NCBI RefSeq assembly: GCF_013155395.1
Contig: NZ_JABJWC010000015.1
Coordinates: forward strand, 1-64,000
Reading direction: 5' to 3'
Length of the DNA stretch: 64,000 nt
Source: Komagataeibacter melomenusus
GTDB taxonomy: Bacteria > Pseudomonadota > Alphaproteobacteria > Acetobacterales > Acetobacteraceae
In this document: one piece after another, positions 43,753 to 60,200 of the stretch
Layout of the letters: each line of letters opens with the position of its first letter
Position numbering within the stretch: the stretch's first letter is position 1
The notes under the pieces: generated by a model
Databases searched by the model: none
What the model was told of the DNA's origin: nothing
What the model saw: the letters and a program-made list of their open reading frames with translations, nothing else
Translations under genes and position numbers: made by a program

Positions 43753-44109
43753 TCAGCTCCCGCGATAGGTCGAAAACCCGAACGGCGAGGCCAGGAGCGG
43801 CACGTGGTAATGCCCGCCCCTGCCATCGGCCCCCGCTGCCGCCATGCCGAATGCAATCGGCACCACGTCAAGGAAAGGCGGCTCGGACAAGGCAGCGCCC
43901 TGCGCGCGGAAATAGGCGGCCACGGCAAATTCCAGCCGGTAGGCACCGGGCTGCATCTCGCCCATCTGCTGGCCCAGTTCAGGGCAGCGCCCATCGGCGT
44001 TGGTCACGCCACGGAACAGGCAGTCCTGCCCCGCCCACAGGCTGATGGCCATGCCAGCAGCGGGCCTGCCCGATACGAGGTCAAGCACATGGGTGGAAAG
44101 CGTGCTCAC
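43753..44109 (-). CDS. uraH: 5-hydroxyisourate hydrolase
   Basis: UraH (transthyretin-like) opens 5-hydroxyisourate to OHCU in urate breakdown. The 118-residue protein starts STHVLDLVSGRPA (active-site His), contains RLEFAVAAYF and the HYHVPLLASPFGFSTYRGS ending, where the C-terminal Y-R-G-S is the diagnostic motif of hydrolases versus transthyretins. It is the last gene of a nine-gene operon and overlaps uraD by 4 bases. Confidence 0.95.
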   Translation of the reverse strand: MSTLSTHVLDLVSGRPAAGMAISLWAGQDCLFRGVTNADGRCPELGQQMGEMQPGAYRLEFAVAAYFRAQGAALSEPPFLDVVPIAFGMAAAGADGRGGHYHVPLLASPFGFSTYRGS

Positions 44110-44633
44110 AGGTCATGCTCCAGGCGTTCAAGCACATCGGCCAGGCGGAGTGCCGCAATCTTGTTGATCTCGGCCAGCGCGGTCTGCTGCTCGGCCTGTG
44201 GCGTGTTGTCCAGCCGGGTGCGCAGGCCGTTGAGGATCGCCTGCTTGTCCGAGCGCCGCACGCAGATGATGAACGGCATGCCGAATTTGGCGGCATAAGC
44301 CTCATTGAGCGCGCGGAAGCTGGAAAACTCATCCGGCGTCAGCCGGTCCAGCCCGGCGGAGGCCTGCTCGGCTGCCGAGGCCGAGGTGAGCGTGGGGTCA
44401 ACCCCCATGCGCTGCGCCAGTTCGGGGTGGGCGCGGATGAGGGCCATCTTTTCGGCCTCGTCCGCCTGTTCCAGCACCAGCGCCATGGCCGCCAGCATGG
44501 CCTCGCGCCCGGTAAAGGGCGCATGGCCATGGGCGCGCTGGGCAATCCAGGGGGAATGCTCGTATATCGGGCCGAACAGTTCCACAAACCGCACGGCGGA
44601 GAGCGAATTCACCCGGTCAAAAACACGGTTCAT
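44106..44633 (-). CDS. uraD: OHCU decarboxylase
   Basis: UraD decarboxylates 2-oxo-4-hydroxy-4-carboxy-5-ureidoimidazoline to S-allantoin. The 175-residue helical protein has the family motif IRAHPELAQRMG with the catalytic His, and FRALNEAYAAKFGMPFIICVR. It overlaps uraH and puuE by 4 bases each. With uraH it gives stereospecific allantoin. Confidence 0.95.
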   Translation of the reverse strand: MNRVFDRVNSLSAVRFVELFGPIYEHSPWIAQRAHGHAPFTGREAMLAAMALVLEQADEAEKMALIRAHPELAQRMGVDPTLTSASAAEQASAGLDRLTPDEFSSFRALNEAYAAKFGMPFIICVRRSDKQAILNGLRTRLDNTPQAEQQTALAEINKIAALRLADVLERLEHDL

Positions 44634-45541
44634 GCCGGGTGCGTCTCCAGCCAGTGCCGGGCGATGTCCAGCCGGGTCGCAACCCAGACCTTCTCGCGCT
44701 GGGCAATATAGTCAAGGAACCGCGCCACCGCCCTTGCACGGCCGGGGCGGCCCGCCACGCGGCAGTGCAGGCCGACCGACATCATGCGCGGCTTCTCGGC
44801 CCCTTCCTCATACAGTTCGTCAAACGTGTCACGCAGGTAGTTGAAGAACTGCTCGCCCTCGGTAAAGCCGTTCAGCGCCACGAAGCGCATGTCGTTCACA
44901 TCGAGCGTGTAGGGCACGATCAGTTGCGGCCGCCCCGCACTACGGTCGTAATAAGGCAGGTCATCGGCGTAGGAATCAGCGTCGTACACAAAGCCGCCTT
45001 CCTCCGCCACGATGCGGGCGGTGTTGGGGCTGGTGCGGCCCTGGTACCAGCCCAGCGGGCGCGAGCCGGTCAGCTTTTCATGCAGCGCGATGCATTCAAG
45101 GATATGGGCGCGCTCCACGGCCTCGGGTATGTGCTGGTAGTCGATCCAGCGCAGCCCGTGGGAGGCGATTTCCCACCCGGCTTCCTTCATCGCGGCAACC
45201 GCTGCGGGGTTGCGCGCCATGGCGGCAGCCACGGCAAACACCGTGAGCGGCTGCCTGCGCTGGGTAAAGATGCGGTGCAGCCGCCAGAACCCGGCGCGCG
45301 AGCCATATTCGTACAGGCTTTCCATCGCAATGGCGCGGGCGCCGGGAATGGACTGCGCGCCCACCATCTCGGACAGGAATGCCTCCGACCCGCGATCGCC
45401 ATGGAGGACCGAGTTCTCGGCCCCCTCCTCGTAATTGATGACGAACTGGACCGCGATCCGCGCCCCGCCAGGCCATTTTGCATCTGGCGGGTTGCCCGCG
45501 TAGCCAACCATGTCGCGCGGATAGGCACCTGTGTCAGACAT
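44630..45541 (-). CDS. puuE: Allantoinase PuuE (polysaccharide deacetylase fold)
   Basis: PuuE hydrolyses allantoin to allantoate with a deacetylase-like barrel instead of the amidohydrolase fold. The 303-residue protein has VQFVINYEEGAENSVL, the ESLYEYGSRAGFWRL motif, ASHGLRWIDYQHIPE and GWYQGRTSPNTARI, all typical of the family. It overlaps uraD by 4 bases and follows pucG by 20. Confidence 0.94.
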   Translation of the reverse strand: MSDTGAYPRDMVGYAGNPPDAKWPGGARIAVQFVINYEEGAENSVLHGDRGSEAFLSEMVGAQSIPGARAIAMESLYEYGSRAGFWRLHRIFTQRRQPLTVFAVAAAMARNPAAVAAMKEAGWEIASHGLRWIDYQHIPEAVERAHILECIALHEKLTGSRPLGWYQGRTSPNTARIVAEEGGFVYDADSYADDLPYYDRSAGRPQLIVPYTLDVNDMRFVALNGFTEGEQFFNYLRDTFDELYEEGAEKPRMMSVGLHCRVAGRPGRARAVARFLDYIAQREKVWVATRLDIARHWLETHPA

Positions 45542-45561
45542 TATGCCGTAATCTCCCGTTA

Positions 45562-46791
45562 TCAGTCGTTATAGGCGGCAAGGGCAGCATCGACGCCTGC
45601 GCCCGCGGCAAAGCCGTGGCCCTCATGGCGCAGCACGGTTTCAAGCGCGCCCATGGTCAGCAGCACCTTGTGCTTTTCAGCGTTGTAGCCCATGGCGCCG
45701 ATGCGCCAGATTTTGCCCTGCAGCGGGCCAAAGGCGGAGCCGATCTCGATCTCGAAATCCTCGCGCATGCGCCTGCGCACCTGCTCCCCGTCAATGCCCC
45801 TGGGGATGTACACGCCGGTCACGTTGGTCATGCGGTGTGCGTCGCCGCCAAACAGTTCCAGCCCCATGGCGCGCAGCCCGGCGCACACCGCGCGCGAGGC
45901 GGCGGCATGGCGGGCGAAGCGGGCCTGAAGCCCTTCCTCCAGCACCACGCGGGCGGCTTCACGCGCGCCATACAGCATGGTGGTGGCCTCGGTGTGGTGA
46001 TTCAGGCGCTTTTCGGACCAGTAATCCATGACCATGGCCAGGTCGAAATAGTTCGACGGAATGCGCACGCGCGTGCCGTCCGTGGTGTCGCTGCCGCGGA
46101 TGCCCGCCTCGACATGGCGGCGGGCGAAGATGTGCTCGGCCGCGCGGTCGGAGAGGGTGATGGGCGCCGAGCCCGGCGGGCCGCCCATGCATTTCTGCAG
46201 GCCCGAACTCACCACGTCCACGCCCCAGCGGTCGGTCGCCACTTCCATGCCGCCCAGGGTGGCCGTGGTGTCGACATAGGAGAGCACATCGTATTTGCGG
46301 CACAATGCGCCCACGCCATCAAGCGGCTGGGCCATGGTGGTGGAGGTATCGCCATGAATGCACGCCAGCACATGCGGGCGGTGGGTGATGATGGCGTCCT
46401 CGATCTGTTCGAGGCTGGCCACCTCGCCCCAGGGCAGGTCCAGCGTCACGATCTCGGCGCCGATGCGCTGCGCGATCTCGGAGAGCAGCAGGCCAAAGCG
46501 CCCCGCGCGCACGATCAAAAGCTTCATGCCCGGCTCGACGAGCGAGACGAGGGCCGCCTCGATACCCGCGCGCGCCGTGCCATCGACCAGCAGGGTCCAG
46601 CGGTTGTTGGTCATGAACACCTGACGGTAGAGATCCATCGTCTGGTTCATGTAGTCGGTCATCTCGGGGTCGAACTGGCCCAGCATGTCGGCCGCCATGG
46701 CGCGCAGCACGCGCGGGTGCGCGTTGACCGGCCCCGGCCCCATCAGCAGCCGGGCGGGAGGGTTGATCTGGCCGAAAAAGGTCTGGGTCAT
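45562..46791 (-). CDS. pucG: Ureidoglycine-glyoxylate aminotransferase
   Basis: A 409-residue PLP enzyme of fold type I, close to alanine-glyoxylate aminotransferase. In purine clusters this protein (UGXT/PucG) transfers the amino group of ureidoglycine to glyoxylate, giving oxalurate and glycine. RLLMGPGPVNAHPRVL at the start and GLQKCMGGPPG with the likely Schiff-base Lys200 are visible. Its place between an allantoate hydrolase and puuE, and beside hpxWXY, supports the ureidoglycine role. It overlaps the hydrolase by 4 bases. Confidence 0.88.
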   Translation of the reverse strand: MTQTFFGQINPPARLLMGPGPVNAHPRVLRAMAADMLGQFDPEMTDYMNQTMDLYRQVFMTNNRWTLLVDGTARAGIEAALVSLVEPGMKLLIVRAGRFGLLLSEIAQRIGAEIVTLDLPWGEVASLEQIEDAIITHRPHVLACIHGDTSTTMAQPLDGVGALCRKYDVLSYVDTTATLGGMEVATDRWGVDVVSSGLQKCMGGPPGSAPITLSDRAAEHIFARRHVEAGIRGSDTTDGTRVRIPSNYFDLAMVMDYWSEKRLNHHTEATTMLYGAREAARVVLEEGLQARFARHAAASRAVCAGLRAMGLELFGGDAHRMTNVTGVYIPRGIDGEQVRRRMREDFEIEIGSAFGPLQGKIWRIGAMGYNAEKHKVLLTMGALETVLRHEGHGFAAGAGVDAALAAYND

Positions 46792-48059
46792 CCGAAATGT
46801 CTCTCAAAAAGTCCGATAAAGGCGATCATCGCCCGCAGGGCTGCATCCGTATCCGCATCGGTTACGGATTCAGCGGGGTTATGGCTGATACCGCCCGCAC
46901 AGCGGATGAACAACATGGAAACAGGAGCCAGATGCGCCATGATCATGGCGTCATGCCCGGCACCGCTGACCAGCAGCCGCGCCTCATGCCCGGTTACGGT
47001 ACCGACCGCCTGTTCCATGAAGGTGGTCAGCCTCGGGTCGCACGGCGTGGCATCAAGATCCTGCTGCATGCTGATGGCGAGTTCCAGCCTGCGTGCCTTT
47101 GCCACTTCATGGGCTACGGCCAGGATGTCGCGGGCCGCACGGTCACGCACTTCATTGGTGCCGGCACGCAGGTCCAGGGTGAACACCACCTCGCCCGGCA
47201 CCACGTTGGCCGCCCCCGGCACCACGTCAAGCGACCCCACGGTGGCCACCAGCCCATCCGTGCCCGCGCGGCCGATCCGCTCGGCGGCGAGGATGATCTC
47301 GGCAGCGCCTGCCAGCGCATCACGCCGCAGGTCCATCGATACGGTGCCCGCATGCCCCGCCATGCCGCGCAGGGTCATGCGGTAGCGGTGCTGGGCGGCA
47401 ATGGCGCTGACCACGCCAAGCGCACGGCCCTCGGCCTCGAGCACGGGCCCCTGCTCGATATGCGCCTCGACATAGGCAAGGATCTTTTCGCCCCTGCGCG
47501 ATGCCGTGTGCATCTGCCCCGCATCCAGCCCGAATGCCCCCAGCGCCGTGGCCAGCGTGGTGGTCTCGGCCCAGTCGCGCATGGCGGGATCGGGGGTTTC
47601 GAGCACGCCTGCCACGGCATGCGAGGTCAGCATGCCGGATGGAAAGCGCGAGCCCTCCTCATCGCCAAAACCGATCACTTCCAGCGCAAAGGGGAAGCGT
47701 TTTCCCTGCCGGGCAAAATGGGCCACGGTCTCGATACCCAGGATGACACCGAGCATGCCATCAAAGAAGCCACCATCACGCACGCTGTCGATATGCGAGC
47801 CGATCAGCAGCACCGGGGCATCAGGTGTCAACCCTTCATAGCGCCCCAGCAGGTTGCCGGCCGCATCCATGCGCGTTGTCATGTCCGCTTCGTGCATCCA
47901 TGTGGCCAGCCGGTCGCAGGTGGCGCGGTAGGAGGGGCCGAGATAGGGGCGGAACAGCCCGCCCTCCATCTCGGAATACGGCGCACGCCCCAGTTCGGTG
48001 CAGCGCCGGACCGCGCGCGGGCCGGAAGGCTGCCGCCTCTGTTCTACAAGATTCACCAT
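46788..48059 (-). CDS. Allantoate amidohydrolase (M20 family)
   Basis: A 423-residue metal-dependent hydrolase of the M20/AllC-HyuC group. Metal ligands appear in GSHIDSVRDGGFFDGMLG (His and Asp) and DEEGSRF (Glu); the late CAGGISHNPAESV is also conserved. It would convert allantoate to ureidoglycine with loss of ammonia and CO2. N-carbamoyl amino acid hydrolases and ureidoglycolate hydrolases look similar, so the assignment rests on the context. I chose ATG 48059, which overlaps the hpxW stop by 7 bases; a GTG at 48071 is also possible. Confidence 0.88.
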   Translation of the reverse strand: MVNLVEQRRQPSGPRAVRRCTELGRAPYSEMEGGLFRPYLGPSYRATCDRLATWMHEADMTTRMDAAGNLLGRYEGLTPDAPVLLIGSHIDSVRDGGFFDGMLGVILGIETVAHFARQGKRFPFALEVIGFGDEEGSRFPSGMLTSHAVAGVLETPDPAMRDWAETTTLATALGAFGLDAGQMHTASRRGEKILAYVEAHIEQGPVLEAEGRALGVVSAIAAQHRYRMTLRGMAGHAGTVSMDLRRDALAGAAEIILAAERIGRAGTDGLVATVGSLDVVPGAANVVPGEVVFTLDLRAGTNEVRDRAARDILAVAHEVAKARRLELAISMQQDLDATPCDPRLTTFMEQAVGTVTGHEARLLVSGAGHDAMIMAHLAPVSMLFIRCAGGISHNPAESVTDADTDAALRAMIAFIGLFERHFG

Positions 48060-49645
48060 GCCGCGACACACCCGTCACTCCGGGGGTCGCTCGCTCCCTC
48101 CAGCAGCCCCGATTCATGGCGCACCAGCGCACCCGCATGCCCCATGATGGAGGAAAATGGCGGCACGCGTTCCATCTGGTGGCCTGCGGCACGCATGCGG
48201 GCGATCACCTCGGGGTCGAAGCGGTCCTCATATTTCAGGCTGACGCTTGATTCGCCCCATGTGCGGCCCAGCAGCCAGCGCGGCGCGGTGATGGCGCGCT
48301 GCAACGGCATGCCATAGCGTGCATAGCGGGTGAAAAGGGCCGCCTGTGTCTGGGGCTGGCCTTCGCCGCCCATGGTACCGTACACCATGGTCCGGCCATC
48401 CTCGAAGCGCGCACCCGCCGGGTTGAGCGTATGGAACGGCTTGCGGCCCGGCTGCAGCCCGTTCCACCCCTGCGGGTCAAGCCCGAAGCTGGTGCCGCGG
48501 TTCTGCCACACCACGCCGGTGCGCGGCAGCACCACGCCCGAGCCATATTCAAAATACAGGCTCTGGATCATGCTCACGGCCAGCCCGTCGGAATCGATCA
48601 CGCCCAGCCAGACCGTATCGCCCTGCTGTGATTGCCATGGCCACGGCGCCGCCTTGTTGGGGTCGATGCCTGCCGCCATGCGGTCGAGTGCCTTGCGGTC
48701 ATCAAGGATGTCCTGCGCCTGCACGGTCATGTAGGCGGGGTCGCCCACATGCGTGTCGCGGTAGCGGAAGGCCTGCTTGGTGGCCTCGACCAGCCCGTGC
48801 AGGTAATCGAAATCATCCGCTTCTGCCGCCTTGAGCCGGTCAAACAGCGCCAGGATCAGCAGCGAGGCCACGCCCTGCGTGGGCGGCGCCATGTTGTACA
48901 GGTCCGCGCCGTGAATGCGGGCATGGAGTGCGGGCTGGTGGGTTGCCTTGTGCGCCTGCAGGTCGGCCAGTGCCAGCGGGCTGCCAAGGGCCTGCAGGTC
49001 GGCGGCGAGTTCACGCGCCACCGTGCCGCGATAGAAGCTGGAAAGCCCTTCATCAACCAGTTGGCGCAGGGTCGTTGCCAGGCGCGGGTTATGCAGGATG
49101 TCGCCTGCCTGCGGCAGCTTGCCGCCGGGCATGAACTGTGCGGCAAAACCGGGCACGTCCTTGAGTTCTTCCGCCTTCTGGCGGGTGATCTCGGCAGCCC
49201 CCGCCGTGACGGGCACGCCCTGTTCGGCATAGTACAGCGCATCGCGCAGCACGCGGCCAAGCGGCAGGCCCGGCGCCATGGCGTGGCTCCATGACAGGGC
49301 CATCTCCCACCCCGACACCGTGCCCGCGACCGTATTGGCCGCAAGCGGGCCACGCCACGGAATCGTGTCATGGCCCGCGGCGTGATAGAACGCGGCATCC
49401 GCCTTGCCTGCGGCAGCCCCGCAGGCATCGATGGTTTCCACCCTTCCATCGGGCCACATGGTCAGCCAGAAGGCATCGCCGCCAATGCCGGTCATGTGCG
49501 GATAGACCACGGCCAGGGCCGCGGCGGTGGCAACGGCGGCCTCGATGGCCGTGCCGCCTGCCTTGAGCACGTCAAGACCGGCCTGGCTGGCAAGGTGGTG
49601 GGGGGATGTGACCATCCCCCGGCATGAACGTGGCGTATTCAGCAT
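48053..49645 (-). CDS. hpxW: HpxW, gamma-glutamyltransferase-like oxamate amidohydrolase
   Basis: A 530-residue Ntn-hydrolase of the gamma-glutamyltransferase fold. The nucleophile of the self-processed small subunit is Thr344 in QQGDTVWLGV. No signal peptide is seen, so it is cytoplasmic, unlike glutathione-directed GGTs. In Klebsiella, HpxW hydrolyses oxamate to oxalate and ammonia at the end of the urate pathway. Its position beside hpxY, hpxX and pucG (which makes oxalurate) fits that role. It overlaps hpxY and the downstream hydrolase by 7 bases each. Confidence 0.87.
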   Translation of the reverse strand: MLNTPRSCRGMVTSPHHLASQAGLDVLKAGGTAIEAAVATAAALAVVYPHMTGIGGDAFWLTMWPDGRVETIDACGAAAGKADAAFYHAAGHDTIPWRGPLAANTVAGTVSGWEMALSWSHAMAPGLPLGRVLRDALYYAEQGVPVTAGAAEITRQKAEELKDVPGFAAQFMPGGKLPQAGDILHNPRLATTLRQLVDEGLSSFYRGTVARELAADLQALGSPLALADLQAHKATHQPALHARIHGADLYNMAPPTQGVASLLILALFDRLKAAEADDFDYLHGLVEATKQAFRYRDTHVGDPAYMTVQAQDILDDRKALDRMAAGIDPNKAAPWPWQSQQGDTVWLGVIDSDGLAVSMIQSLYFEYGSGVVLPRTGVVWQNRGTSFGLDPQGWNGLQPGRKPFHTLNPAGARFEDGRTMVYGTMGGEGQPQTQAALFTRYARYGMPLQRAITAPRWLLGRTWGESSVSLKYEDRFDPEVIARMRAAGHQMERVPPFSSIMGHAGALVRHESGLLEGASDPRSDGCVAAW

Positions 49646-51012
49646 GCCTTTTCCTTCCGCGCGTAACCCGCATCAAGCGGGCGGCAGGCGGCAAGGCCCG
49701 CGCGCTGCAGTTCGGCCGCCACGGCAAACAGCTTTGCCTCGGCTCCGGGCGCGCCGATGAGCTGGATGCCCAGCGGCAGGCCCGGCGCGGCCAGCGGGGT
49801 GGCCAGCACCGGCAGCCCGGCCAGGCTGATGGGCTGGGTGTAAATGCCCAGATTGGCCCGCGCGGAAACGCTCTTGCCATCCACCATGATGGAAGGCTGG
49901 TCGATACGCGGCGCAACCCCCACCGTGGTCGGCGCCACCAGCACATCGGCCTGCGTCAGGGCTTCATGCACCTGCGCGCGGAACCACCGGCGGAAGCGCT
50001 GCGCCTGCACGAAGGTCGCCGCGGGCAGCATGGCGCCCGCCATGAGGCGGCTGCGGGTGGCGGGATCATACTGCATGGAGCGTCGGCGCAGGCGCGGCAG
50101 GTGCAGGTTGCCCCCTTCCGCCGCGCTGATGAGGAAGGCCGATGCCCGCGCGCGCGCCACCTCGGGCAGTTCAATGACACGGTCATGGCCCAGATGCGCC
50201 ATCACGCCATCGATCGCGGCCGTCAGCCCGGTGCTGACATTGCGGGCAAACCACCCCCCCAGCCGCGCCACTTTAACGGATGCCACATCAGGCAGGACCG
50301 ATACGTCCCGGCCTGCCATGATGGCATATACCGCCATCAGGTCCTCAAGCGTATCGGCCATGGGGCCTGCGGTATCAAGGCTGGCCACGAAGGGATAGAC
50401 ACCGCGCAGCGGCACCTGGCCATAGGTGGGCTTGAGCCCCCACACCCCGCACAGCGCGGAGGGGATGCGGATCGAGCCATTGGTGTCCGAGCCCAGCGTA
50501 AAGGGCAGCAGCCCCGCCGCCACGGCGGCTGCCGACCCGCCCGACGAGCCACCGGCAAGGCGGTCGCGGTCATGCGGGTTGCGGGTGGTGCCGTTATGGG
50601 CGTTCTCGGTGGAGAAGCCGTAGGCAAACTCATCCATGTTCAGGGTGGCCACCGGCACGGCGCCAGCCGCGCGCAGGCGGGCGATGACGGTGGCGTCCTC
50701 GGTGGCGGGCAGGTTGTCGCGCAGCACGATCGAGCCTGCGGTGGTGACTTCGCCGCGCACGTCAAACAGGTCTTTTACGCCAAAGGGCACGCCTGCGAGC
50801 GGGCCGGGGTCCTGACCCGCGGCCATGGCCTTGTCCACCGCCTCGGCCTGCGCCACGGCGGCGGGGCCAAGAATGCGGGTTACGCTGTTGAAGCGGGTGT
50901 CACGCGCCTCGATATCGGAAATGACCGCCGTGACCACGCCCACGGCATTGCGGCGGCCGGCGCGTATGTCGGCGGCAATGCCAAGCGCGGCACCCATGGC
51001 ATGGGCGCTCAT
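49639..51012 (-). CDS. hpxY: AtzE-family amidase HpxY
   Basis: A 457-residue amidase-signature enzyme. Catalytic Lys80 (FGVKDLFD), cis-Ser156 (GGSSGGSAAA) and nucleophile Ser180 (GSDTNGSIR) are all in place. AtzE-type enzymes form a GatA-like complex with a small partner (AtzG; here HpxX, directly upstream). AtzEG cleaves carboxybiuret; HpxY is thought to act on oxalurate or a related ureido acid, not proved. It overlaps hpxX by 4 bases and hpxW by 7. Confidence 0.88.
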   Translation of the reverse strand: MSAHAMGAALGIAADIRAGRRNAVGVVTAVISDIEARDTRFNSVTRILGPAAVAQAEAVDKAMAAGQDPGPLAGVPFGVKDLFDVRGEVTTAGSIVLRDNLPATEDATVIARLRAAGAVPVATLNMDEFAYGFSTENAHNGTTRNPHDRDRLAGGSSGGSAAAVAAGLLPFTLGSDTNGSIRIPSALCGVWGLKPTYGQVPLRGVYPFVASLDTAGPMADTLEDLMAVYAIMAGRDVSVLPDVASVKVARLGGWFARNVSTGLTAAIDGVMAHLGHDRVIELPEVARARASAFLISAAEGGNLHLPRLRRRSMQYDPATRSRLMAGAMLPAATFVQAQRFRRWFRAQVHEALTQADVLVAPTTVGVAPRIDQPSIMVDGKSVSARANLGIYTQPISLAGLPVLATPLAAPGLPLGIQLIGAPGAEAKLFAVAAELQRAGLAACRPLDAGYARKEKAC

Positions 51013-51245
51013 GGCGCGTACTCATAGGCTGGCTCGCAGTCATCAGGCAGCACGAAGCCTGTCACGAGGTCGGCATAGCCCTGCAGCAGCGCCATATTGG
51101 CCACGACATCTGGCAGGCAGGCCACCGGAATGTTCAGGCCGATCATCCGGGCCATGTCTGCCACGGGGGGCACCTTGTGGTCATTGCTCGCCCCCGCGCC
51201 GGCAACACCCGGCGCGGAAGGTGAAAGGCTTACAGTGCTGCTCAT
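51009..51245 (-). CDS. hpxX: HpxX / AtzG-like small subunit (DUF4089)
   Basis: A 78-residue protein with the DUF4089 core: an N-terminal helix (ADMARMIGLNIPV), PDVVANMALLQGYADLV and the C-terminal FVLPDDCEPAYEYAP. AtzG-type proteins are GatC-like partners of AtzE amidases, and the gene overlaps hpxY by 4 bases. A disordered Ser/Ala/Pro stretch precedes the core. Confidence 0.88.
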   Translation of the reverse strand: MSSTVSLSPSAPGVAGAGASNDHKVPPVADMARMIGLNIPVACLPDVVANMALLQGYADLVTGFVLPDDCEPAYEYAP

Positions 51246-51287
51246 CTACTCACTCTCTCCCGAATGGATAAATCTACCCGGGGCGCA

Positions 51288-52736
51288 TCATGCAACAGGA
51301 GGATCGAGACTGACTAGTTCCGCCACGTCATAAGACAGCAGACTTTCAAGGTGCTTGCGGCCATCGGCCACGTACAGGTCACGCCCCAGCCCGTGGGCAA
51401 GACGCTCCACGCCAAAGCGCATGCCGCTGATCGACGCCCCCGAAAGCCCCATGCTCGGCGTGGCCGAGAACGTGAAATTGTGGATGTTGGCCAGCATGGG
51501 CGCCAGCGGATCATTCGGCTCGCGCGGCAGGAACTGGTAGCAGTCGCCCAGGTAGGGATAGCTTTCGAGCACCGCGCTCTCGGCCCCTGCGGGTGCCTTG
51601 TAGCGCTCGCCCCACAGGGCGACGGAGGGGGCAAACGATGCGGTCTCGGGCCTGCGGGACAGGTCGGTTGCGAAGCCCGTGCCAATGATCACGAAGTCAA
51701 AGCGCATCTCGCCGGTGGGCGAATCGACAACGATTTCATCGCCTTCCATGCGGGCGGCGGTCCAGGGGCAGCCGGTGCGGTAGGCAAAGTTTTCATGCCT
51801 GCGGCAGCGCCAGAACGTATCTTGCGGCGGCGGCTGGTTGAGGTCGAAGATACGGCGCATGAAGCCCCAGCGCAGTTCATCGGACAGGGCGGGGTAGTAG
51901 GCGAGGAAGCCGGTATTCTCCATCCACCGGTACGGGTTGATGGAAGGGATTTCCTTACGCCGCAGGCACAGCGTGACACTGCCCGCACCTTCCTCGAGTG
52001 CCGTGGCGGCATTATCGAACGCCGAGGCCCCGGCGCCGAGCACGCCGATGCGCTTGCCCCTGAGCGCTGCGAAATCGATCGCCTCGGATGTATGGGCATA
52101 ACGGTCGCGCGGCAGGCCGTTGCGGATGAAGTCGGGCACATGCCACGTGCCACAGCCCTCGATGCCGGTGGCCAGCACCAGCTTGCGGGCATAATGCACA
52201 TGGCTCGTGCCATCGGGGCGGCGGAAGGTCAGGCGCAGCAGGCCGTCCTCCCACGTCACGCCGCTGAATTCGTGGTCATTGGCCACCGGCAGGTCAAGGA
52301 TGTCGCGGTACCAGTCGAGATAGGCCTGCCAGTCCCCACGGGGGATCTTGTCCAGTTTCTCCCACGCCTGCGCGCCGTATCGCGCCTCATACCACGAGCG
52401 CGGGGTGAGCGAGGGCACGCCAAGGTCGGGGCCGGTCACGTATTTGGGGGTGCGCAGCGTGATCATGCGCGCGAAGGTCACCCACGGGCCTTCGCCACCT
52501 TTTGCGGCGCGGTCGAAGATGCGCACGTTGGTGATGTTGTTGCGCTTGAGCGCAAAGGCCGTGGCAAGCCCGCCCTGCCCCGCGCCGATGATCGCCACAT
52601 CCAGCACGCGCTGTCCATCACGCTCGATGGGGGGAATCCATTCCTTGCGCGGGTAGCGGATGATTTCCAGATCGCGGCGCACGGCTGCATCGAGCGCTGC
52701 CAGCCCCCCGTCTTTCGGCTGCATGTTGGTATCCAT
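51288..52736 (-). CDS. FAD/NAD(P)-dependent monooxygenase-like protein
   Basis: A 482-residue flavoprotein of the class B monooxygenase type. The FAD loop is IIGAGQGGLA (about 50-58), the NAD(P) loop is VLGAGASA (about 232-239), and a third conserved stretch is VIIGTGFATDL. Class B enzymes oxygenate carbon or heteroatoms; I cannot name the substrate. It heads the operon that leads into hpxX, hpxY and the urate genes, and no urate oxidase is recognisable in the window, so a role in an oxidation step of this pathway is an open possibility. A perfect T-N11-A palindrome lies upstream. Confidence 0.85.
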   Translation of the reverse strand: MDTNMQPKDGGLAALDAAVRRDLEIIRYPRKEWIPPIERDGQRVLDVAIIGAGQGGLATAFALKRNNITNVRIFDRAAKGGEGPWVTFARMITLRTPKYVTGPDLGVPSLTPRSWYEARYGAQAWEKLDKIPRGDWQAYLDWYRDILDLPVANDHEFSGVTWEDGLLRLTFRRPDGTSHVHYARKLVLATGIEGCGTWHVPDFIRNGLPRDRYAHTSEAIDFAALRGKRIGVLGAGASAFDNAATALEEGAGSVTLCLRRKEIPSINPYRWMENTGFLAYYPALSDELRWGFMRRIFDLNQPPPQDTFWRCRRHENFAYRTGCPWTAARMEGDEIVVDSPTGEMRFDFVIIGTGFATDLSRRPETASFAPSVALWGERYKAPAGAESAVLESYPYLGDCYQFLPREPNDPLAPMLANIHNFTFSATPSMGLSGASISGMRFGVERLAHGLGRDLYVADGRKHLESLLSYDVAELVSLDPPVA

Positions 52737-52779
52737 CTGCGGGTCCCCATCTGTTTTTGCGTCTTGTGCTGATGCAGCC

Positions 52780-52807
52780 CCGTATGACGTCCCCCGACGC
52801 CATACGG
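52780..52807. promoter_or_regulatory. Near-perfect palindrome upstream of the FAD gene
   Basis: CCGTATGACGTC (52780-52791) and GACGCCATACGG (52796-52807) pair at 11 of 12 positions around CCCC. It lies 43 bases before the FAD-gene start on its transcript side. It may be a leader hairpin or a second operator. Confidence 0.5.
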
Positions 52808-52887
52808 ATATCCCCCAACCGCACCACGATGGGTTGATCTAATCAGCCCGCAGGCTGTTCCGTCCAGTAGAATGATTTCATCGTTCC

Positions 52888-52904
52888 GTTGCGTAAATCG
52901 CAAC
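52888..52904. promoter_or_regulatory. Candidate LysR-type operator (T-N11-A)
   Basis: GTTGCG and CGCAAC flank TAAAT as a perfect inverted repeat. It contains TGCGTAAATCGCA, an exact T-N11-A site of the LysR class. It sits just past the lysR stop and about 150 bases upstream of the FAD gene that heads the hpx/ura operon, so the neighbouring LysR protein is the natural candidate. Confidence 0.6.
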
Positions 52905-52909
52905 AGGGT

Positions 52910-53866
52910 TCAGACCACGCGCTCGTCGCCCACGCCCTGCACGCGGCGCAACTCGAGGCGCAGTTCCTCGATCACGGTTTCCAGCAATGGCGGCAGCCAG
53001 CGGGATTCACGCACATAGGCCCCGAGGTCGGTCACGGCGCGGGTATCACGCAATGGCACATGGCGCAGGCTGTCCTGGCCGGGCTGCACGCCTACGGCCA
53101 GCGGCGACTGGAAGGCCAGCCCCGCGCCGGCAAGCACCATGCGGTTGGTCAGTTCGATCGAGCCGGTATGCAGCACCACGTTCAGCCGGTCCTGCCACGG
53201 GCGCAGCATGGGCTCCATCACGCGGTAGAGCGAGAGCGTGCGCGTGGGCAGGATCAGCCGGTAGGCCACGCATTCCTCCACCGTTACGGTGCGCAGGTGT
53301 GCCAGCGGATGATCGGCCCGCACCACCGCGCCGACCGGGAAGTGCCCCACCGCCACCCGCCGCAGTTCGGGGTACAGCGCCAGCGAGAACGCGATGCCAA
53401 GGTCCACCCGCCCATCCTGCAACGCCGAGACGATGGTTTTTGGGGCGCCGACCTCCACATGCAGCTCAACGCTGGGGAAGGCCGAGATGATGCGCTCGAG
53501 CAGCGCGGGCAAGAGCTGGCCCGCAATCCCTTCCACCGCCATGATGCGCAGCCTGCCGTCATGCCGGCCGGACAGGGCGTTGATCTGCTCCTCCGTCCGG
53601 GCGGCATCCTGCATCACGGTCACGATATGGCGGGCCATGATGGTGCCCACCTCGGTCAGGACCATGCCCTCGGGCAGGCGGTCGAACAGGGGCGCGCCGA
53701 TCTCGGCCTCCATCTGCGCAAGCTGGCGCGTCAGCGCCGAGGGCGTGACATTGAGCCTGCGCGCCGCCTCGCGGATGGAGCGGCATTCGCGCACCGCATT
53801 GAAATAGGAAATGCCCCGCGCGTGCAGGCGCATCATGCGGGGCGTGCGCGAAAGCGGATCGTTCAT
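52910..53866 (-). CDS. LysR-type transcriptional regulator
   Basis: A 318-residue regulator. The N-terminal winged helix-turn-helix (about 17-77) with YFNAVRECRSIREAARRLNVTPSALTRQLAQME and the C-terminal effector domain (about 100-300) are clear. The ligand is not evident; a purine intermediate such as urate or allantoin is likely from context. It overlaps xdhC by 4 bases, so it is transcribed with the xdh genes, and a T-N11-A palindrome lies between it and the next operon. Confidence 0.9.
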   Translation of the reverse strand: MNDPLSRTPRMMRLHARGISYFNAVRECRSIREAARRLNVTPSALTRQLAQMEAEIGAPLFDRLPEGMVLTEVGTIMARHIVTVMQDAARTEEQINALSGRHDGRLRIMAVEGIAGQLLPALLERIISAFPSVELHVEVGAPKTIVSALQDGRVDLGIAFSLALYPELRRVAVGHFPVGAVVRADHPLAHLRTVTVEECVAYRLILPTRTLSLYRVMEPMLRPWQDRLNVVLHTGSIELTNRMVLAGAGLAFQSPLAVGVQPGQDSLRHVPLRDTRAVTDLGAYVRESRWLPPLLETVIEELRLELRRVQGVGDERVV

Positions 53867-54717
53867 AGGCGTCTCTCATCCCCATCTGCATCACGGCCTT
53901 CCTGTGCGGCATGCACGAAGCGCGTGACGATTTCCGCCGCCACCAGCGCCGCGATGACCGAAGGCCGCTTGTCACGCACGCCCTGCCCCCCGATGGGGCA
54001 GACCATGGCCCTGATGCGCTCTTCAGGCAGGCCGAGCGCGCGGAAGGCCATCTCGAAGCGGCGGCGCTTGGTGTGCGAGCCGATCAGGCCCACATAGCGA
54101 AAGTCGCCCCGTTCGAGGATGGATGCAACAATCAGGCTGTCAAGCGCGTGGCTCTGGGTCAGCACCAGCGCGCCTGATCCGGCGGGCGCATCGGTTACAA
54201 GGCGCTGCCAGTCGCCATCATCATGCACCTCTACCCCTGCGGGAATGACGGGGCCGAATTCATGCGGGCGCGAATCGCACCATGCCAGCCGCAGCGGCAG
54301 CGGGGCCAGCACATGCGCCAGGGCGCGGCCCACATGCCCTGCCCCGAACAGCAACAGCAGCGGAGCCTCGCGGCGCTGGCGCTCGAGTTGCGCCATGACA
54401 GCGTCCAGCCCCCTGCCATCGGGCACGTCGATGAACAGCCTCACCTCGCCCCCGCAGCATTGCCCGGAGTTGCCCCCAAGGTCGATGCGCAGGTCCTGCC
54501 CGCCACCCCCCGTGGCCAGCAGGTGGCGGGCGTGATAGACGGCGTTCCATTCCAGATCCCCACCGCCCACCGTGCCGGACTGCTCCGTGGCGGTGACCAG
54601 CATGAAGGTGCCCGCCTCACGCGGGGTGGACCCCCGCGCGGCAGCCACGCTGATCCGGGCGACCGGCTGGCCCATGAGCCGCCAGCGGGCCAGATCGGCG
54701 CGCATTTCCATGCTCAT
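53863..54717 (-). CDS. xdhC: Xanthine dehydrogenase accessory protein XdhC
   Basis: XdhC inserts sulfurated molybdenum cofactor into the xanthine dehydrogenase catalytic subunit. The 284-residue protein has the N-terminal ARGSTPREAGTFMLV and GGGDLEWNAV regions, the conserved GQCCGGEVRLFI Cys pair and a C-terminal Rossmann-like domain (LLLFGAGHVGRALA, VCPIGGQGVRDKRP). It follows xdhB by 5 bases. Confidence 0.93.
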   Translation of the reverse strand: MSMEMRADLARWRLMGQPVARISVAAARGSTPREAGTFMLVTATEQSGTVGGGDLEWNAVYHARHLLATGGGGQDLRIDLGGNSGQCCGGEVRLFIDVPDGRGLDAVMAQLERQRREAPLLLLFGAGHVGRALAHVLAPLPLRLAWCDSRPHEFGPVIPAGVEVHDDGDWQRLVTDAPAGSGALVLTQSHALDSLIVASILERGDFRYVGLIGSHTKRRRFEMAFRALGLPEERIRAMVCPIGGQGVRDKRPSVIAALVAAEIVTRFVHAAQEGRDADGDERRL

Positions 54718-54722
54718 GGGGT

Positions 54723-57089
54723 TCAGCCAGCGGCAGGCTGGCCGCAGCGCAGGCGATCTGCCGTGCGCAGGATCATCTCCGGCGTGGCGGGCGCGTCCAG
54801 CCGGGGGCAGGTGCGGTAGCCATCAAGGCTGGCCAGCGCATCCGATATGGCCTGCAGCACCGACACCCCATGCACGAAGGGCGGCTCGCCTACCGCCTTG
54901 GAGCGGAAGATGGTGTGCTCGCGGTTGGGCGCGTTTTCCAGCAATTCCACGTTGAACACGCGCGGGCGGTCGGAACAGGCGGGGATTTTATAGGTGCTGG
55001 GCGCGTGCGTGCGCAGGCGGCCTGCATCGTCCCACACCAGTTCCTCGCATGTCAGCCAGCCAGCCCCCTGCACGAAACCGCCCTCGATCTGGCCGATGTC
55101 GAGGGCCGGGTTCAGCGACTGGCCCGCGTCATGCAGGATATCGACCCGGTCAATCTTCGTCTCGCCCGTCAGCAGGTCGATCACCACCTCCGAACACGCG
55201 GCCCCGTAGGCGAAGTAATAGAAGGGCCGCCCCTGCCCCGTATCGCCATTCCACGAGATCCTGGGCGTTTTGTAGAACCCGTTGGCCGACATGGACACGC
55301 GCGCGAAATAGGCCTGCCGGGTCAGGTGCGCAAACGCGATCACCTTCTCACCCACATGCACGCCATCGGGGGCGAAGCGCACCGCGTCCTCGCCTACGTT
55401 CCAGTGGCTGGCGGCAAATTCAACCAGCCTGCGCTTGATGCGGCGCACGGCATCGAGCACCGCCATGCCGTTGAGGTCCGCCCCACTCGAGGCCGCCGTG
55501 GCGGACGTGTTGGGCACCTTGCCGGTAGTGGTGGCGGTAATGCGCACCTGGTCGGTGCCCAGGCCGAATTCGCGCATGGCCACCTGCACCATCTTGGTGT
55601 GCAGGCCCTGGCCCATCTCGGTGCCGCCGTGGTTCACCTGCACCGAGCCATCGGTATAGACATGCACCAGCGCACCGGCCTGGTTGTAATGGGTGGCTGT
55701 GAACGAGATGCCGAATTTGACTGGCGTGATGGCAATGCCGCGCCGCAGGTAGGGGCTGGTGGCGTTGAATTCGCGGCATGCCGCGCGGCGTTCGGTATAA
55801 TGGCAGCGCCGGGCCAGTGCGGGCAGCAGGTCGTGGGTGATCGAGTCCTCCACCACCATGTTGTACGGCGTGACATTGCGCTCATGCGTGCCATAGACGT
55901 TGCGCAGCCGCACTTCGAGCGGGTCGAGGCCGGTGGCAAACGCAATCTCCTCGATCACGCGCTCGGCAGCGACAATGCCCTGCGGGCCGCCAAAGCCGCG
56001 ATAGGCGGTGTTGGACTGCGTGTTGGTGCGCAGCGGCTCCGAGCGCAGGCGCACATCGGGGTAGAAATAGGCGTTATCGGCATGGAACAGCGCCCGGTCG
56101 ATGACCGGGCCGGACAGGTCGGCCGACCAGCCACACCGCGCGGCAAGCACCATGTCCACCGCCACGATGCGCCCATCATCGGTAAAGCCTGCATCGTAAT
56201 CGATCACGAAGTCATGGCGCTTGCCGGTCATGGTCATGTCGTCATCGCGGTCGAGGCGCATCTTGGCCGCCCGGCCCGTCCTGTCAGCCACAAGGGCGGC
56301 GAGGCAGGCACAGGCATTGGCCTGCGTTTCCTTGCCGCCAAAGCCGCCGCCCATGCGCCGCACCTCGACGGTGATGAGGTTGGCGGGGCGGTCGAGCACA
56401 TGGGCGACCATATGCTGTGTCTCGGTCGGGTGCTGGGTGGATGAAGTGACATGCATCTCCCCCTCCTCGCCCGGCCGGGCCAGCGCCACCTGCCCCTCAA
56501 GGTAGAAATGCTCCTGCCCGCCCACCGTGATCCGGCCCGACAGCCTGCGCGGCGCGTGTTCCAGCCCGGCCAGAACGTCGCCGCGCTTCATTTCCATGGG
56601 CCGCCAGACCAGCGGGCTGCCATTCTCACGGGCCTGCGCGATATTGAGGATGGCGGGCAGGTCTTCATAATCCACAACCGCCAGACGCGCCGCGCGCCGG
56701 GCCGCTCCCCGCGTGGTGGCGGCCACGACAAAGAGCGGCTGGCCGTAAAAGGAGACAATATCTTTTGCCAGCAACGGCTCATCACCCTTGCCCACCGGGC
56801 TGATCTGGTTCTCGCCCGGTATGTCGGCCGCCGTATAGACCGCCACCACGCCTTTGGCCTGCCGCACGGCATCAAGGTTCATGGACACGATGCGGGCATG
56901 GGCGCGCGTGCTCAGGCCGGGCACGAGGTGCAGCGTGCCACGCGGTTCGGGCAGGTCGTCAATATAACTGGCCGTGCCCTGCACGTGCATGGCCGCACTC
57001 TCGTGGCGCAGGCTTTCCGATGCGCCGCCGGGCACGATGCCCGCAGCCGATACGGGGGCGGTGGTGGCCGTGATGTGTGCATCAGCCAT
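54723..57089 (-). CDS. xdhB: Xanthine dehydrogenase molybdopterin subunit
   Basis: The large catalytic subunit that oxidises hypoxanthine and xanthine to urate. 788 residues from the ATG at 57089, chosen because it follows a GGGAGA site and overlaps the xdhA stop by only 8 bases. Visible features include GTASYIDDLPEPRGTLHL, RRMGGGFGGKE (cofactor binding), GGTEMGQGLHTKMVQVA and the catalytic Glu in SKAVGEPPFVHG. It pairs with the Fe-S/FAD subunit just upstream. Confidence 0.95.
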   Translation of the reverse strand: MADAHITATTAPVSAAGIVPGGASESLRHESAAMHVQGTASYIDDLPEPRGTLHLVPGLSTRAHARIVSMNLDAVRQAKGVVAVYTAADIPGENQISPVGKGDEPLLAKDIVSFYGQPLFVVAATTRGAARRAARLAVVDYEDLPAILNIAQARENGSPLVWRPMEMKRGDVLAGLEHAPRRLSGRITVGGQEHFYLEGQVALARPGEEGEMHVTSSTQHPTETQHMVAHVLDRPANLITVEVRRMGGGFGGKETQANACACLAALVADRTGRAAKMRLDRDDDMTMTGKRHDFVIDYDAGFTDDGRIVAVDMVLAARCGWSADLSGPVIDRALFHADNAYFYPDVRLRSEPLRTNTQSNTAYRGFGGPQGIVAAERVIEEIAFATGLDPLEVRLRNVYGTHERNVTPYNMVVEDSITHDLLPALARRCHYTERRAACREFNATSPYLRRGIAITPVKFGISFTATHYNQAGALVHVYTDGSVQVNHGGTEMGQGLHTKMVQVAMREFGLGTDQVRITATTTGKVPNTSATAASSGADLNGMAVLDAVRRIKRRLVEFAASHWNVGEDAVRFAPDGVHVGEKVIAFAHLTRQAYFARVSMSANGFYKTPRISWNGDTGQGRPFYYFAYGAACSEVVIDLLTGETKIDRVDILHDAGQSLNPALDIGQIEGGFVQGAGWLTCEELVWDDAGRLRTHAPSTYKIPACSDRPRVFNVELLENAPNREHTIFRSKAVGEPPFVHGVSVLQAISDALASLDGYRTCPRLDAPATPEMILRTADRLRCGQPAAG

Positions 57090-58650
57090 GAGCGTGTTCT
57101 CCCGTGGCGGTACAGGCGGCGTGCACGCTGGTGGATGCACGGGCGGCCTGCGGCCCGCACTCAGCGTAAAGCCGGGTGAGCAGGTTGGCGGCCACCGTGC
57201 TGCGGTACCACGCGCTGGCCCGCATGTCGCTCAGCGGCGTGAAATCTGCCGTGATCGCCTCACGCGCGGCTGCCAGCGTGGCTTCAGTCCACTTCCGGCC
57301 CGCCAGGGCGGCTTCCGTGCGGGTGGCGCGCCGCGGGGTGGCCGCCATGCCGCCAAAGGCGATGCGCGGGTTACTGATGGTGCCATCAGGCGCAAGCGTG
57401 AGCGAAAACGCGCCCAGAATGGCCGAGATGTCCTGATCGAACCGCTTGGACACTTTCCATGCGCGGATGAGCGTATCGGGTGCCGGGGCAGGAATGGTGA
57501 TCCCTTCCACAAACTCGCCCGGCGCGCGGTCCTGCTGGCCGTAATCCACAAAGAAATCTTCCAGCGCGAGGGTGCGGCGCGTATCGCCCCGGCGCAGGTG
57601 CAACTGCGCCCCTGCCGCGATCAGCACCGGCGGCCCATCGCCAATGGGCGAGCCGTTGGCAATGTTGCCGCACACCGTGCCCGCATTGCGCACCTGCACC
57701 GAGCCGATGCGGCGGAACACTTCCTCATCCGGCTGGGGCAGGATGTGCGCCAGCGCCGCGCGGGCTTCCTGCCATGTTACCGCCGCGCCGATGTACAGCC
57801 CGTCCGCCGTGGCCGCGATACGCCGCAGGTCGGCAATCTGGCCAATGGAGATCACATGCGGCAGGTCGCGCAGGCCCTTGATCACCCACAGCCCCACATC
57901 GGTCGCCCCCGCCACGATGCGGGCCTGCGGGCTTTCAAGCAGCGTGTGGGCCAGTCCATCCGCCGTTGCGGGAATGCTCAGGCGGCCCGCAGGCCCGGTC
58001 ATGTCAACCGTGGCCCCGTCACGCAGGGCGCGCAGGCGCGCGGCCATATCATCGGCCATGGCATCGAAATGGTCCGGCCCGGCCTGCATGGCGTGGCGCA
58101 TGGCGCGCACGATGGGCGCATAGCCGGTGCAGCGGCACAGATTGCCTGCCAGCATGTCGTCAATGCCGCGTTCATCCTGCGCCAGTCCCGCCGCCTTGCG
58201 GCCCGCCACCATGGACATGACAAAGCCCGGCGTGCAGAAGCCGCATTGCGAGCCGTGATGCTCCACCATGGCCTGCTGCACCGGGTGCAGGCTGCCATCG
58301 GGGGCGCGCATGTCCTCGATGGTGAGCACCTGCGCGCCATCGAGCATGCATACGAACTGGATGCACGCATTGACCGCGCGCCAGACCAGGCGCGCGCCCT
58401 CAAGCCTGACCACGAGCACCGTGCAGGCGCCGCAATCGCCCTCGTTACAGCCTTCCTTGGTGCCGGTCAGGCCACGCTCCTCGCGCAGCCAGTCCAGCAG
58501 CGTACGTGTTGGCGCGATGCTGGCCAACGCATGATATTCGTTTCCGACATAGAAACGGATATCGTGTCTGATCCCCGTCAAACCTGTTCCCTTAGTCCTG
58601 TGGCCACGGACTGCCTCACCCCCCTCAAGGCAGACAGCCGGAACAGCCAT
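57082..58650 (-). CDS. xdhA: Xanthine dehydrogenase Fe-S/FAD subunit
   Basis: The electron-transfer subunit (522 residues at most). The N-terminal [2Fe-2S] ferredoxin domain has CNEGDCGACTVLV, the second cluster domain has SQCGFCTPGFVMS and NLCRCTGYAP, and the middle FAD domain (about 210-390) has NAGTVCGNIANGSPIGD. The start is uncertain: ATG 58650 has a distant ribosome site, while TTG at 58581 has AAGGGA at ideal spacing and gives the usual short N-terminus before RHDIRFYVG. Confidence 0.93.
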   Translation of the reverse strand: MAVPAVCLEGGEAVRGHRTKGTGLTGIRHDIRFYVGNEYHALASIAPTRTLLDWLREERGLTGTKEGCNEGDCGACTVLVVRLEGARLVWRAVNACIQFVCMLDGAQVLTIEDMRAPDGSLHPVQQAMVEHHGSQCGFCTPGFVMSMVAGRKAAGLAQDERGIDDMLAGNLCRCTGYAPIVRAMRHAMQAGPDHFDAMADDMAARLRALRDGATVDMTGPAGRLSIPATADGLAHTLLESPQARIVAGATDVGLWVIKGLRDLPHVISIGQIADLRRIAATADGLYIGAAVTWQEARAALAHILPQPDEEVFRRIGSVQVRNAGTVCGNIANGSPIGDGPPVLIAAGAQLHLRRGDTRRTLALEDFFVDYGQQDRAPGEFVEGITIPAPAPDTLIRAWKVSKRFDQDISAILGAFSLTLAPDGTISNPRIAFGGMAATPRRATRTEAALAGRKWTEATLAAAREAITADFTPLSDMRASAWYRSTVAANLLTRLYAECGPQAARASTSVHAACTATGEHAHG

Positions 58651-58809: not shown

Positions 58810-60159
58810 TCAAACGGATAACCGCGCTGCCTGCCGCATCCGCGCGGACAGGCCGGGCCGGAACGCGGGGCATGGCACGTAGGCCCCCTGGCCTGTGCCT
58901 TCATGCAATGCCCCGTTGCGGAACACGACCACGCCGCCCCGGATGACGCATTCTGGCTGGCCACCGAGCATGATGCCCCCGTACAGGCCGCCCGCGCTGG
59001 CTGGGCGCAACGCCTGCGCATCGGGGTTCCACAGCACGAGGTCGGCATCCGCGCCCGGCATGATGGCCCCCTTGCGGGGATAGATGTTGAATGCCATTGC
59101 CGCCGCCTCCGCCGTGGCGCGGACGAATTCCTCCGCCGTCAGCACGCCTGCCTGCACGCCATGCCGCCACACCACGCGCATCCGCTCGGCCAGCCCCTCC
59201 GCCATGCCATGCCCCGCCTGCCGGGCCGGGCTGAAGCCGCTGGCCACCATGCCCACCGCCCCACAGGACAGCGCACCCCACAGCGCGCGGCGATGCGTGC
59301 CATCCCGAAAGGGCGGGCGACTCAGGTAGGGGGACGGGTCATCGGCGTCATAAACCGCCTCATCGAGCACGAGATGCGGGGCGAGCACATGCGCCTGCAC
59401 GCGCTGGGCCTGGGCGCGGGCGGTGATGATGGCGGCACACGCGCCCGCGGTTGAAACCGGGCCGACATGCACCGGCGCCCCCACCAGCCCTGCCAGCATG
59501 ATGGCCCGGCCCACGGCTTCCGCCTCGATGGCTGGCGGGCAGGCCAGCGCGCAGGCCTCGGCCCCGCTCACCCCCGCATGGTCAAGGGCTGTGCGCAGGT
59601 AAGCCATGGCCTGCGCGTTCTGCGCCTCGATCACGCACAATGCGCCAAGCCCTGCCGCATGGGTCGCCAGATCAAGGATGTCACGATCCGCCATGCCCGA
59701 TGCCATGGGCAGGTGAAAGCTGTTGACCCCAAGGCCCGCCAGCGTGTCCATGCCGCCCATGACAGCGCCACCGGCCCCAGGCAGCCCCATGCACAGCCCG
59801 ACATCAACCGGCGCGCGGGCTGCCGCGTGCCGCCAGTCGCGCCCGGCGCGCGCCACGTCCCGCCCCTCGGGCCGCATCACATCAATGATGGTGGTGGTAC
59901 CGCCAGCCAGCGCCTCGGCCGTTGCGGCAAAACCGGCTTCATCCGCGCCGATGCCGGTGTGGGGGTCCACCCCGCCCGGCAGCACCAGCAGGCCACCGGC
60001 ATCAATGACCGTGCAGGCGGTGGGGGCCTCGAGTTCAGGCCCCACGGCCAGGATTTCACCCACGCCGCCACACAGCACGTCCACCCGCAGGCTGGCCTGC
60101 CCCGTGACCACCGTGCCCCCGCGGACCAGCAGCAGGTCACGCTGCGCTCCGTGCTTCAT
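58810..60159 (-). CDS. Dihydropyrimidinase/hydantoinase-like protein lacking metal ligands
   Basis: A 449-residue protein that follows the dihydropyrimidinase fold along its length, with AEALAGGTTTIIDV, SRPPFRDGTHRRALWGALSCG, FNIYPRKGAIMPGADADLVLWNP. The binuclear metal site is missing. HTH is His67-Thr-Gly69; the carboxylated Lys of NSFK is His149; the His of VHAEN is Ile177; the His of VVHVS is Pro234; the Asp of TDHCPF is Gly308. A short deletion follows HTG. It is probably a non-hydrolytic homologue. The ATG at 60159 has GGAGGG ahead. It sits upstream of the xdh operon on the same strand, 159 bases away. Confidence 0.85.
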   Translation of the reverse strand: MKHGAQRDLLLVRGGTVVTGQASLRVDVLCGGVGEILAVGPELEAPTACTVIDAGGLLVLPGGVDPHTGIGADEAGFAATAEALAGGTTTIIDVMRPEGRDVARAGRDWRHAAARAPVDVGLCMGLPGAGGAVMGGMDTLAGLGVNSFHLPMASGMADRDILDLATHAAGLGALCVIEAQNAQAMAYLRTALDHAGVSGAEACALACPPAIEAEAVGRAIMLAGLVGAPVHVGPVSTAGACAAIITARAQAQRVQAHVLAPHLVLDEAVYDADDPSPYLSRPPFRDGTHRRALWGALSCGAVGMVASGFSPARQAGHGMAEGLAERMRVVWRHGVQAGVLTAEEFVRATAEAAAMAFNIYPRKGAIMPGADADLVLWNPDAQALRPASAGGLYGGIMLGGQPECVIRGGVVVFRNGALHEGTGQGAYVPCPAFRPGLSARMRQAARLSV

Positions 60160-60200
60160 GCTGCCCTCCGTCACCGATCTGCCTGCGGGCAATCACGCAG

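Follow-up and report, generated by a model that had tools for sequence, protein, structure and literature searches.

A candidate HpyO-type urate hydroxylase in the purine catabolism island of Komagataeibacter melomenusus

We analysed a 64,000-nucleotide stretch of the Komagataeibacter melomenusus genome (assembly GCF_013155395.1, contig NZ_JABJWC010000015.1, positions 1 to 64,000 of the forward strand; hereafter the window), which carries an island of purine catabolism genes and, within it, a gene for a flavin adenine dinucleotide (FAD)/NAD(P)H flavoprotein at 51288-52736. Sequence comparisons make it very likely that this gene encodes the urate hydroxylase of the island, be it HpyO or an enzyme of independent origin, and likely that the enzyme is of the HpyO type. 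A first-pass annotation, made from the letters of the window, had offered three readings of the flavoprotein: a non-homologous urate hydroxylase, action on another intermediate, or no relation to the pathway, with the urate oxidase elsewhere in the genome. The first of these is now strongly supported by the co-occurrence of the gene with uraD, by its clade and by the gene linkage of its relatives. The same annotation saw no recognisable urate oxidase. It overlooked HpyO, an FAD/NAD(P)H urate hydroxylase known in Xanthomonas since 2012 (Michiel et al., as cited in the accessible portion of PMC4562309). The gene fits HpyO on two counts, its clade and the order of the genes around its relatives.

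Urate oxidation genes in Komagataeibacter and its family

The source genome (3.6 Mb in 146 contigs, completeness 100, with the window in contig C53) has no match to Uox (PF01014) or PuuD (PF06181) anywhere in the assembly. Likewise, nothing in the genome exceeded the 500-bit cut-off of the HpxO model NF033623, the best E-value being 2.2e-16 among the best 14 of 44 candidate stretches, which were scored; the same model was over its cut-off in 0 of 120 Acetobacteraceae genomes. Two likely HpxO proteins from other genomes, chosen beforehand by position and FAD motif, scored 611 and 554 bits and pass the cut-off, and therefore the test works. We therefore reject the idea that a hidden member of these three families acts from elsewhere in the genome, on profile searches of the assembly that were negative throughout for Uox and PuuD and, for HpxO, in the best 14 of 44 candidate stretches.

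We surveyed 120 Acetobacteraceae genomes from 102 genera, most genera being represented once; the Fisher tests given here ignore shared ancestry. The 23 main-clade carriers comprise genomes with a flavoprotein at least 55% identical to that of the window and, in addition, G023 (45-46% identity), where the gene lies between uraD and uraH; in one carrier, G105, the gene is split over two contig ends. Five further genomes (L189-L193), in which the flavoprotein adjoins uraH and no TIGR03164 uraD match was found genome-wide, bring all carriers to 28. Across the sample, uraD occurs in 45 genomes (43 over cut-off), Uox in 7 and PuuD in 29, of which 24 are full length; we left four short matches and one fragment out of the counts, all five of them in non-carriers. 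uraD is present in 22/23 main-clade carriers compared to 23/97 of the others (Fisher 1e-10). In contrast, full-length PuuD or Uox is found in 0/28 carriers compared to 31/92 other genomes (1e-4), and among the uraD genomes in 0/22 carriers compared to 17/23 others (1e-7). Other Acetobacteraceae perform the same step with PuuD, an unrelated membrane cytochrome c urate oxidase.

A second set comprised 80 Acetobacteraceae loci selected by their flavoprotein match, as the best 80 of 108, in which the protein is 65-97% identical to that of the window; the proteins of Komagataeibacter xylinus and K. nataicola are 96-97% identical. The reading frame in the window is intact, and with relatives at these identities it is therefore no chance reading frame. 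UraD was found in all 80 genomes, in 68 within the fetched locus together with uraH and in 12 elsewhere in the genome; ten of these 12 loci are cut by contig ends and two have the genes apart. No PuuD was detected in the 50 genomes of this set that were tested for it. The co-occurrence with uraD in genomes without PuuD or Uox, which the first-pass annotation had proposed as a check, is therefore what we observe. In 34/80 loci the flavoprotein gene is followed by puuE, uraD and uraH. In a further 40/80 atzE comes next, counting island genes within 600 bases, and 6/80 have no island gene in that range. In Gluconobacter loci a divergently oriented LysR gene adjoins the four-gene run, and the fetched stretch contains nothing else from the island of the window.

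Relatives, clade and signature residues

Relatives of the flavoprotein show the same linkage beyond Acetobacteraceae. The gene is flanked by uraD and uraH in Niveispirillum (60% identity to the window protein), in Sphingobium and Novosphingobium (44-45%) and in G672 (44%), a genome from the same phylum and another class, probably Gammaproteobacteria. The atzE, ggt, allC, pucG and puuE genes of the window are for the most part also found in G672 and the sphingomonads. In Bacillota, plasmid p5 of Priestia filamentosa has an uninterrupted series of genes (L184, 5722-9404) for a nucleobase permease, UraD, UraH and the flavoprotein (45%), a compact cassette that is likely a urate-to-allantoin unit. 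Homologues occur in 337 plasmid records; of ten neighbourhoods examined, those in Niveispirillum, Priestia, Sphingobium and Novosphingobium contain uraD and uraH, and the other six have neither. In another class, 16 of 219 genomes have uraD, and the 14 of these loci that we pulled hold a PuuD-like gene in eight cases, the flavoprotein in one (G672) and neither within the stretch in five; the order to which G672 belongs is represented by two genomes only. One family (f51), first guessed to be Xanthomonadaceae, was set aside as a source of HpyO, since it has PuuD-like proteins (L162 and L165, judged by eye) or HpxO (L161). On a plasmid of Rhizobium sp. ACO-34A (L218), a flavoprotein 49% identical to that of the window shares its locus with a puuE-like deacetylase and an annotated 8-oxoguanine deaminase gene, and neither uraH nor uraD is present there.

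In a tree of 81 proteins, where linkage was scored as uraH or uraD within the fetched stretch, all 32 linked proteins fall into one group of 47 rows (support 98/95), with no linked protein among the remaining 34. As 15 rows of the group lack the linkage, the label by itself is not monophyletic (10 changes). Ten of these are carriers with uraD elsewhere in the genome or with a short stretch, and five are outlying proteins of Rhizobium, Mesorhizobium, Bradyrhizobium, G318 and Lichenicola. When these five outliers are set apart, residues M272, E273, N300, Q301 and S437 are found in 42/42 rows taken as the urate clade and in 0-6% of the 34 paralogues; in the outliers these residues are only partly conserved.

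The source genome encodes two full-length paralogues, at C113:57426-58808 (51% identical) and C91:124937-126340 (43-45%). Neither is a credible urate enzyme, as both lack uraH and uraD in the 20 kb fetched around them and lie outside the urate group of the tree. The surroundings of the C113 gene gave weak matches only, to hydantoinase (25%) and allantoate amidohydrolase (31%). The motifs NPxRxME and NQPP are common to the window flavoprotein and its uraD/uraH-linked relatives. They are absent from the C113 protein (51%) but present in the Sphingobium protein (44%), which argues for shared function over overall similarity. These motifs may separate urate hydroxylases from many look-alike paralogues.

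Relation to HpyO, mechanism and alternative readings

The accessible text of PMC4562309 lists four urate-oxidising enzymes, Uox, HpxO, HpyO and PuuD, and describes HpyO as not homologous to HpxO and as a member of a large family with many paralogues; in its Table 1, which covers 1689 species, 44 urad species lack Uox, HpxO and PuuD, and 26 are left once HpyO is counted. In Xanthomonas citri, the part of PMC6337780 available to us gives XAC0295 as 5-hydroxyisourate hydrolase (uraH), XAC0296 as a monooxygenase (inorganic ion transport class), XAC0297 as the OHCU decarboxylase (uraD), XAC0298 as NTF2-like and XAC0299 as a polysaccharide/chitin deacetylase, which we read as puuE. Sphingobium, Novosphingobium and G672 share this order (puuE, an AtzH-like gene with SnoaL/NTF2-type matches, uraD, flavoprotein, uraH), so the slot of XAC0296 is the slot of the clade's flavoprotein. 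By this analogy XAC0296 would be the orthologue of X. campestris HpyO, which we take to have the locus tag XCC0279. PF13454, presumably named after HpyO in InterPro, is the best Pfam match of the two sphingomonad proteins and is over cut-off in the window protein.

Like HpyO, the window protein is an FAD/NAD(P)H flavoprotein unrelated to HpxO in a genome with uraH and uraD, and its clade relatives occupy the slot of the X. citri monooxygenase. It differs in that the window does not keep the X. citri order: the Komagataeibacter gene precedes the AtzG-like gene and atzE, and island genes separate it from uraD. Furthermore, the window protein is only 44-45% identical to the sphingomonad proteins, and its likely orthology to HpyO is inferred from gene order. 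HpxO of Klebsiella catalyses the reaction proposed here, also with FAD and NAD(P)H, but belongs to another family: NF033623 has no match on the window flavoprotein, and only the GxGxxG stretch aligns convincingly with one likely HpxO protein. Single papers assign a Caballeronia COG2072 flavoprotein to KEGG K22879 (FAD-dependent urate hydroxylase) and report EC 1.14.13.113 in Commensalibacter communis. Our literature search, with most subscription papers beyond its reach, found no description of this gene in Komagataeibacter.

The flavoprotein has an FAD motif, GAGQGG, and a second Rossmann motif, GAGASA. PDB sequence searches gave no family-level match, most matches being partial and in the FAD and NAD(P) domains, and comparison with a viral fold library was uninformative. 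An AlphaFold2 model built from 20 sequences (mean pLDDT 82) found its best fold matches in the N-hydroxylating monooxygenases PvdA and SidA, the top one with an E-value of 7.5e-21, 18% identity, a TM-score of 0.57 by query and an rmsd of 5.8; HpxO is not among the 50 fold matches listed. The top ten matches span 451-494 alignment columns, but at 15-18% identity, TM-scores of 0.54-0.57 by query and rmsd values of 5.8-7.2, so the domain packing differs or is poorly modelled. Low confidence at segments 83-92 and 424-434 limits statements on the active site. Flavin chemistry like that of SidA and PvdA is suggested by the predicted fold, and we infer that the flavoprotein itself hydroxylates urate. 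In such a scheme, NAD(P)H would reduce the bound FAD, the reduced flavin would react with O2 to give an oxygenating flavin intermediate, and this would hydroxylate urate at C5 to yield 5-hydroxyisourate, water and NAD(P)+. Next, UraH, UraD, PuuE, allantoate amidohydrolase and the PucG/Hpx proteins would convert the product to smaller nitrogen and carbon compounds and ammonia. The formation of water and not H2O2 is described in the available portion of PMC4562309 for enzymes of the HpyO type, unlike Uox.

Several observations weigh against an HpyO-type urate hydroxylase. The family of the protein is large and rich in paralogues, of which the C113 protein, not near uraH or uraD, is closer overall than the Sphingobium protein, and none of the NCBIfam equivalogs reaches its cut-off on the window flavoprotein. 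A homologue at E<=1e-60 occurs in 23/398 Pseudomonadota genomes, 21 of them outside Acetobacteraceae, and none of these 21 is near its genome's uraD match by coordinates (11 loci were pulled, none linked), so outside this family the urate branch is rare and patchily distributed. The positions used as a signature were selected by contrast on the same rows that they describe, with counts that ignore shared ancestry, and the X. citri order comes from consecutive locus tags in one paper, strands not seen. The Uox test covered the 120-genome sample, and the genomes chosen for the flavoprotein were tested for PuuD (50 of them). A 'uricase' gene in Gluconobacter, shared with Tatumella, is mentioned in the accessible part of PMC8358223, where its family is unstated, and we could not reconcile it with any one family. 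Finally, 6/45 uraD genomes (G006, G033, G052, G075, G113 and G119) have neither the carrier gene nor full-length PuuD or Uox. The uraD matches of G033 and G119 are broken or partial, a PuuD fragment stands at a contig edge in G113, and the completeness of G075 is 77%. G006 (L145) and G052 (L146) have uraD, and no full-length PuuD, Uox or carrier flavoprotein gene.

The alternative that fares best is a urate hydroxylase whose flavoprotein family is no orthologue of HpyO and arose from the same superfamily by independent recruitment. In its favour are the 44-46% identity to the branch of the sphingomonads, G672, Priestia and G023, of which part has a gene order matching Xanthomonas, and some paralogues that are equally or more similar overall. 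However, the window protein and that branch share the supported 47-row group and the signature residues that the paralogues lack, and we consider independent recruitment improbable. A variant, in which the Acetobacteraceae protein and the FAD-uraH pairs of the five relatives form a family of their own and a further independent solution to urate oxidation, seems to us equally improbable.

Flavoproteins of this fold class are catalytically diverse, and urate activity is here argued from sequence evidence. The substrate could instead be a different intermediate of the purine pathway, for example hypoxanthine, xanthine or a compound with an opened ring, with urate oxidised by an unknown enzyme. 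The lack of full-length PuuD or Uox in all 28 carriers speaks against this, as do the small cassettes (FAD-puuE-uraD-uraH, permease-uraD-uraH-FAD and FAD-uraH), which leave for the flavoprotein only the step producing the UraH substrate; we regard such a role as very unlikely. That the gene is unrelated to purine breakdown, with urate oxidation elsewhere or lost, is barely credible: paralogues do exist in other contexts, two in this very genome, but the genome is negative for Uox and PuuD and, in the best 14 of 44 candidate stretches, for HpxO, and UraD accompanies the flavoprotein in 80/80 genomes chosen for it.

Organization of the island and wider context

If a urate hydroxylase of the HpyO type is indeed encoded here, it would close the urate step for food, industrial and insect-associated bacteria (Komagataeibacter, Gluconobacter, Acetobacter and Asaia). 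It also offers a candidate for the enzyme with which Acetobacter of flies break down uric acid; in the accessible text of PMC11936674, uric acid is reported to be lost in the presence of an Acetobacter pasteurianus strain, though on only one of the two diets, and genes are not named there. The enzyme is most likely ordinary in kind, this kind being already described in Xanthomonas, and useful as annotation.

The purine genes run from xdhA to uraH on the minus strand throughout (Table 1). Curated models (uraH, uraD, puuE, allantoate amidohydrolase and AtzE) and Pfam (xdh) confirm that xanthine dehydrogenase and the steps from 5-hydroxyisourate onward are in the window. The earlier gene list is borne out except for the AtzG-like gene, which it overlooked. 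Its pucG and hpx names hold up in part: allantoate amidohydrolase and AtzE are over curated cut-offs, but PucG and HpxW are named by position and weaker similarity.

Table 1. Genes of the purine island, in window coordinates, with supporting models
Gene or product	Position	Strand	Evidence
uraH, 5-hydroxyisourate hydrolase	43753-44109	minus	TIGR02962, 107 bits (cut-off 87)
uraD, OHCU decarboxylase	44106-44633	minus	TIGR03164, 192 bits (cut-off 96)
puuE, allantoinase	44630-45541	minus	TIGR03212, 537 bits (cut-off 425)
PucG/HpxJ-like class-V aminotransferase	45562-46791	minus	PF00266; no equivalog over cut-off; named by context
Allantoate amidohydrolase (HpxK-like)	46788-48071	minus	NF006775, 582 bits (cut-off 479)
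Gamma-glutamyltransferase-like, HpxW-like	48053-49645	minus	PF01019; TIGR00066, 325 bits, below cut-off 358; named by context
AtzE-like amidohydrolase (HpxY-like)	49639-51012	minus	NF006631, 589 bits (cut-off 461); TIGR02715 over cut-off
AtzG-like small subunit (HpxX-like by position)	51009-51245	minus	PF13318, 1.8e-11; 4-base overlap with atzE
FAD/NAD(P)H flavoprotein, proposed HpyO-type urate hydroxylase, 482 aa	51288-52736	minus	PF13434, PF13738, PF07992 and PF13454 over cut-off
LysR-type regulator	52910-53866	minus	PF00126, PF03466
xdhC, xanthine dehydrogenase maturation factor	53863-54717	minus	PF02625, PF13478
xdhB, molybdopterin subunit	54723-57140	minus	PF01315, PF02738, PF20256
xdhA, FeS/FAD subunit	57082-58650	minus	PF00111, PF01799, PF00941, PF03450

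Upstream of xdhA, the window contains a dihydropyrimidinase/hydantoinase-like gene on the minus strand (58810-60192; TIGR02033, 261 bits, below the cut-off of 393), a relative of which is present in 27/80 of the flavoprotein-chosen loci.

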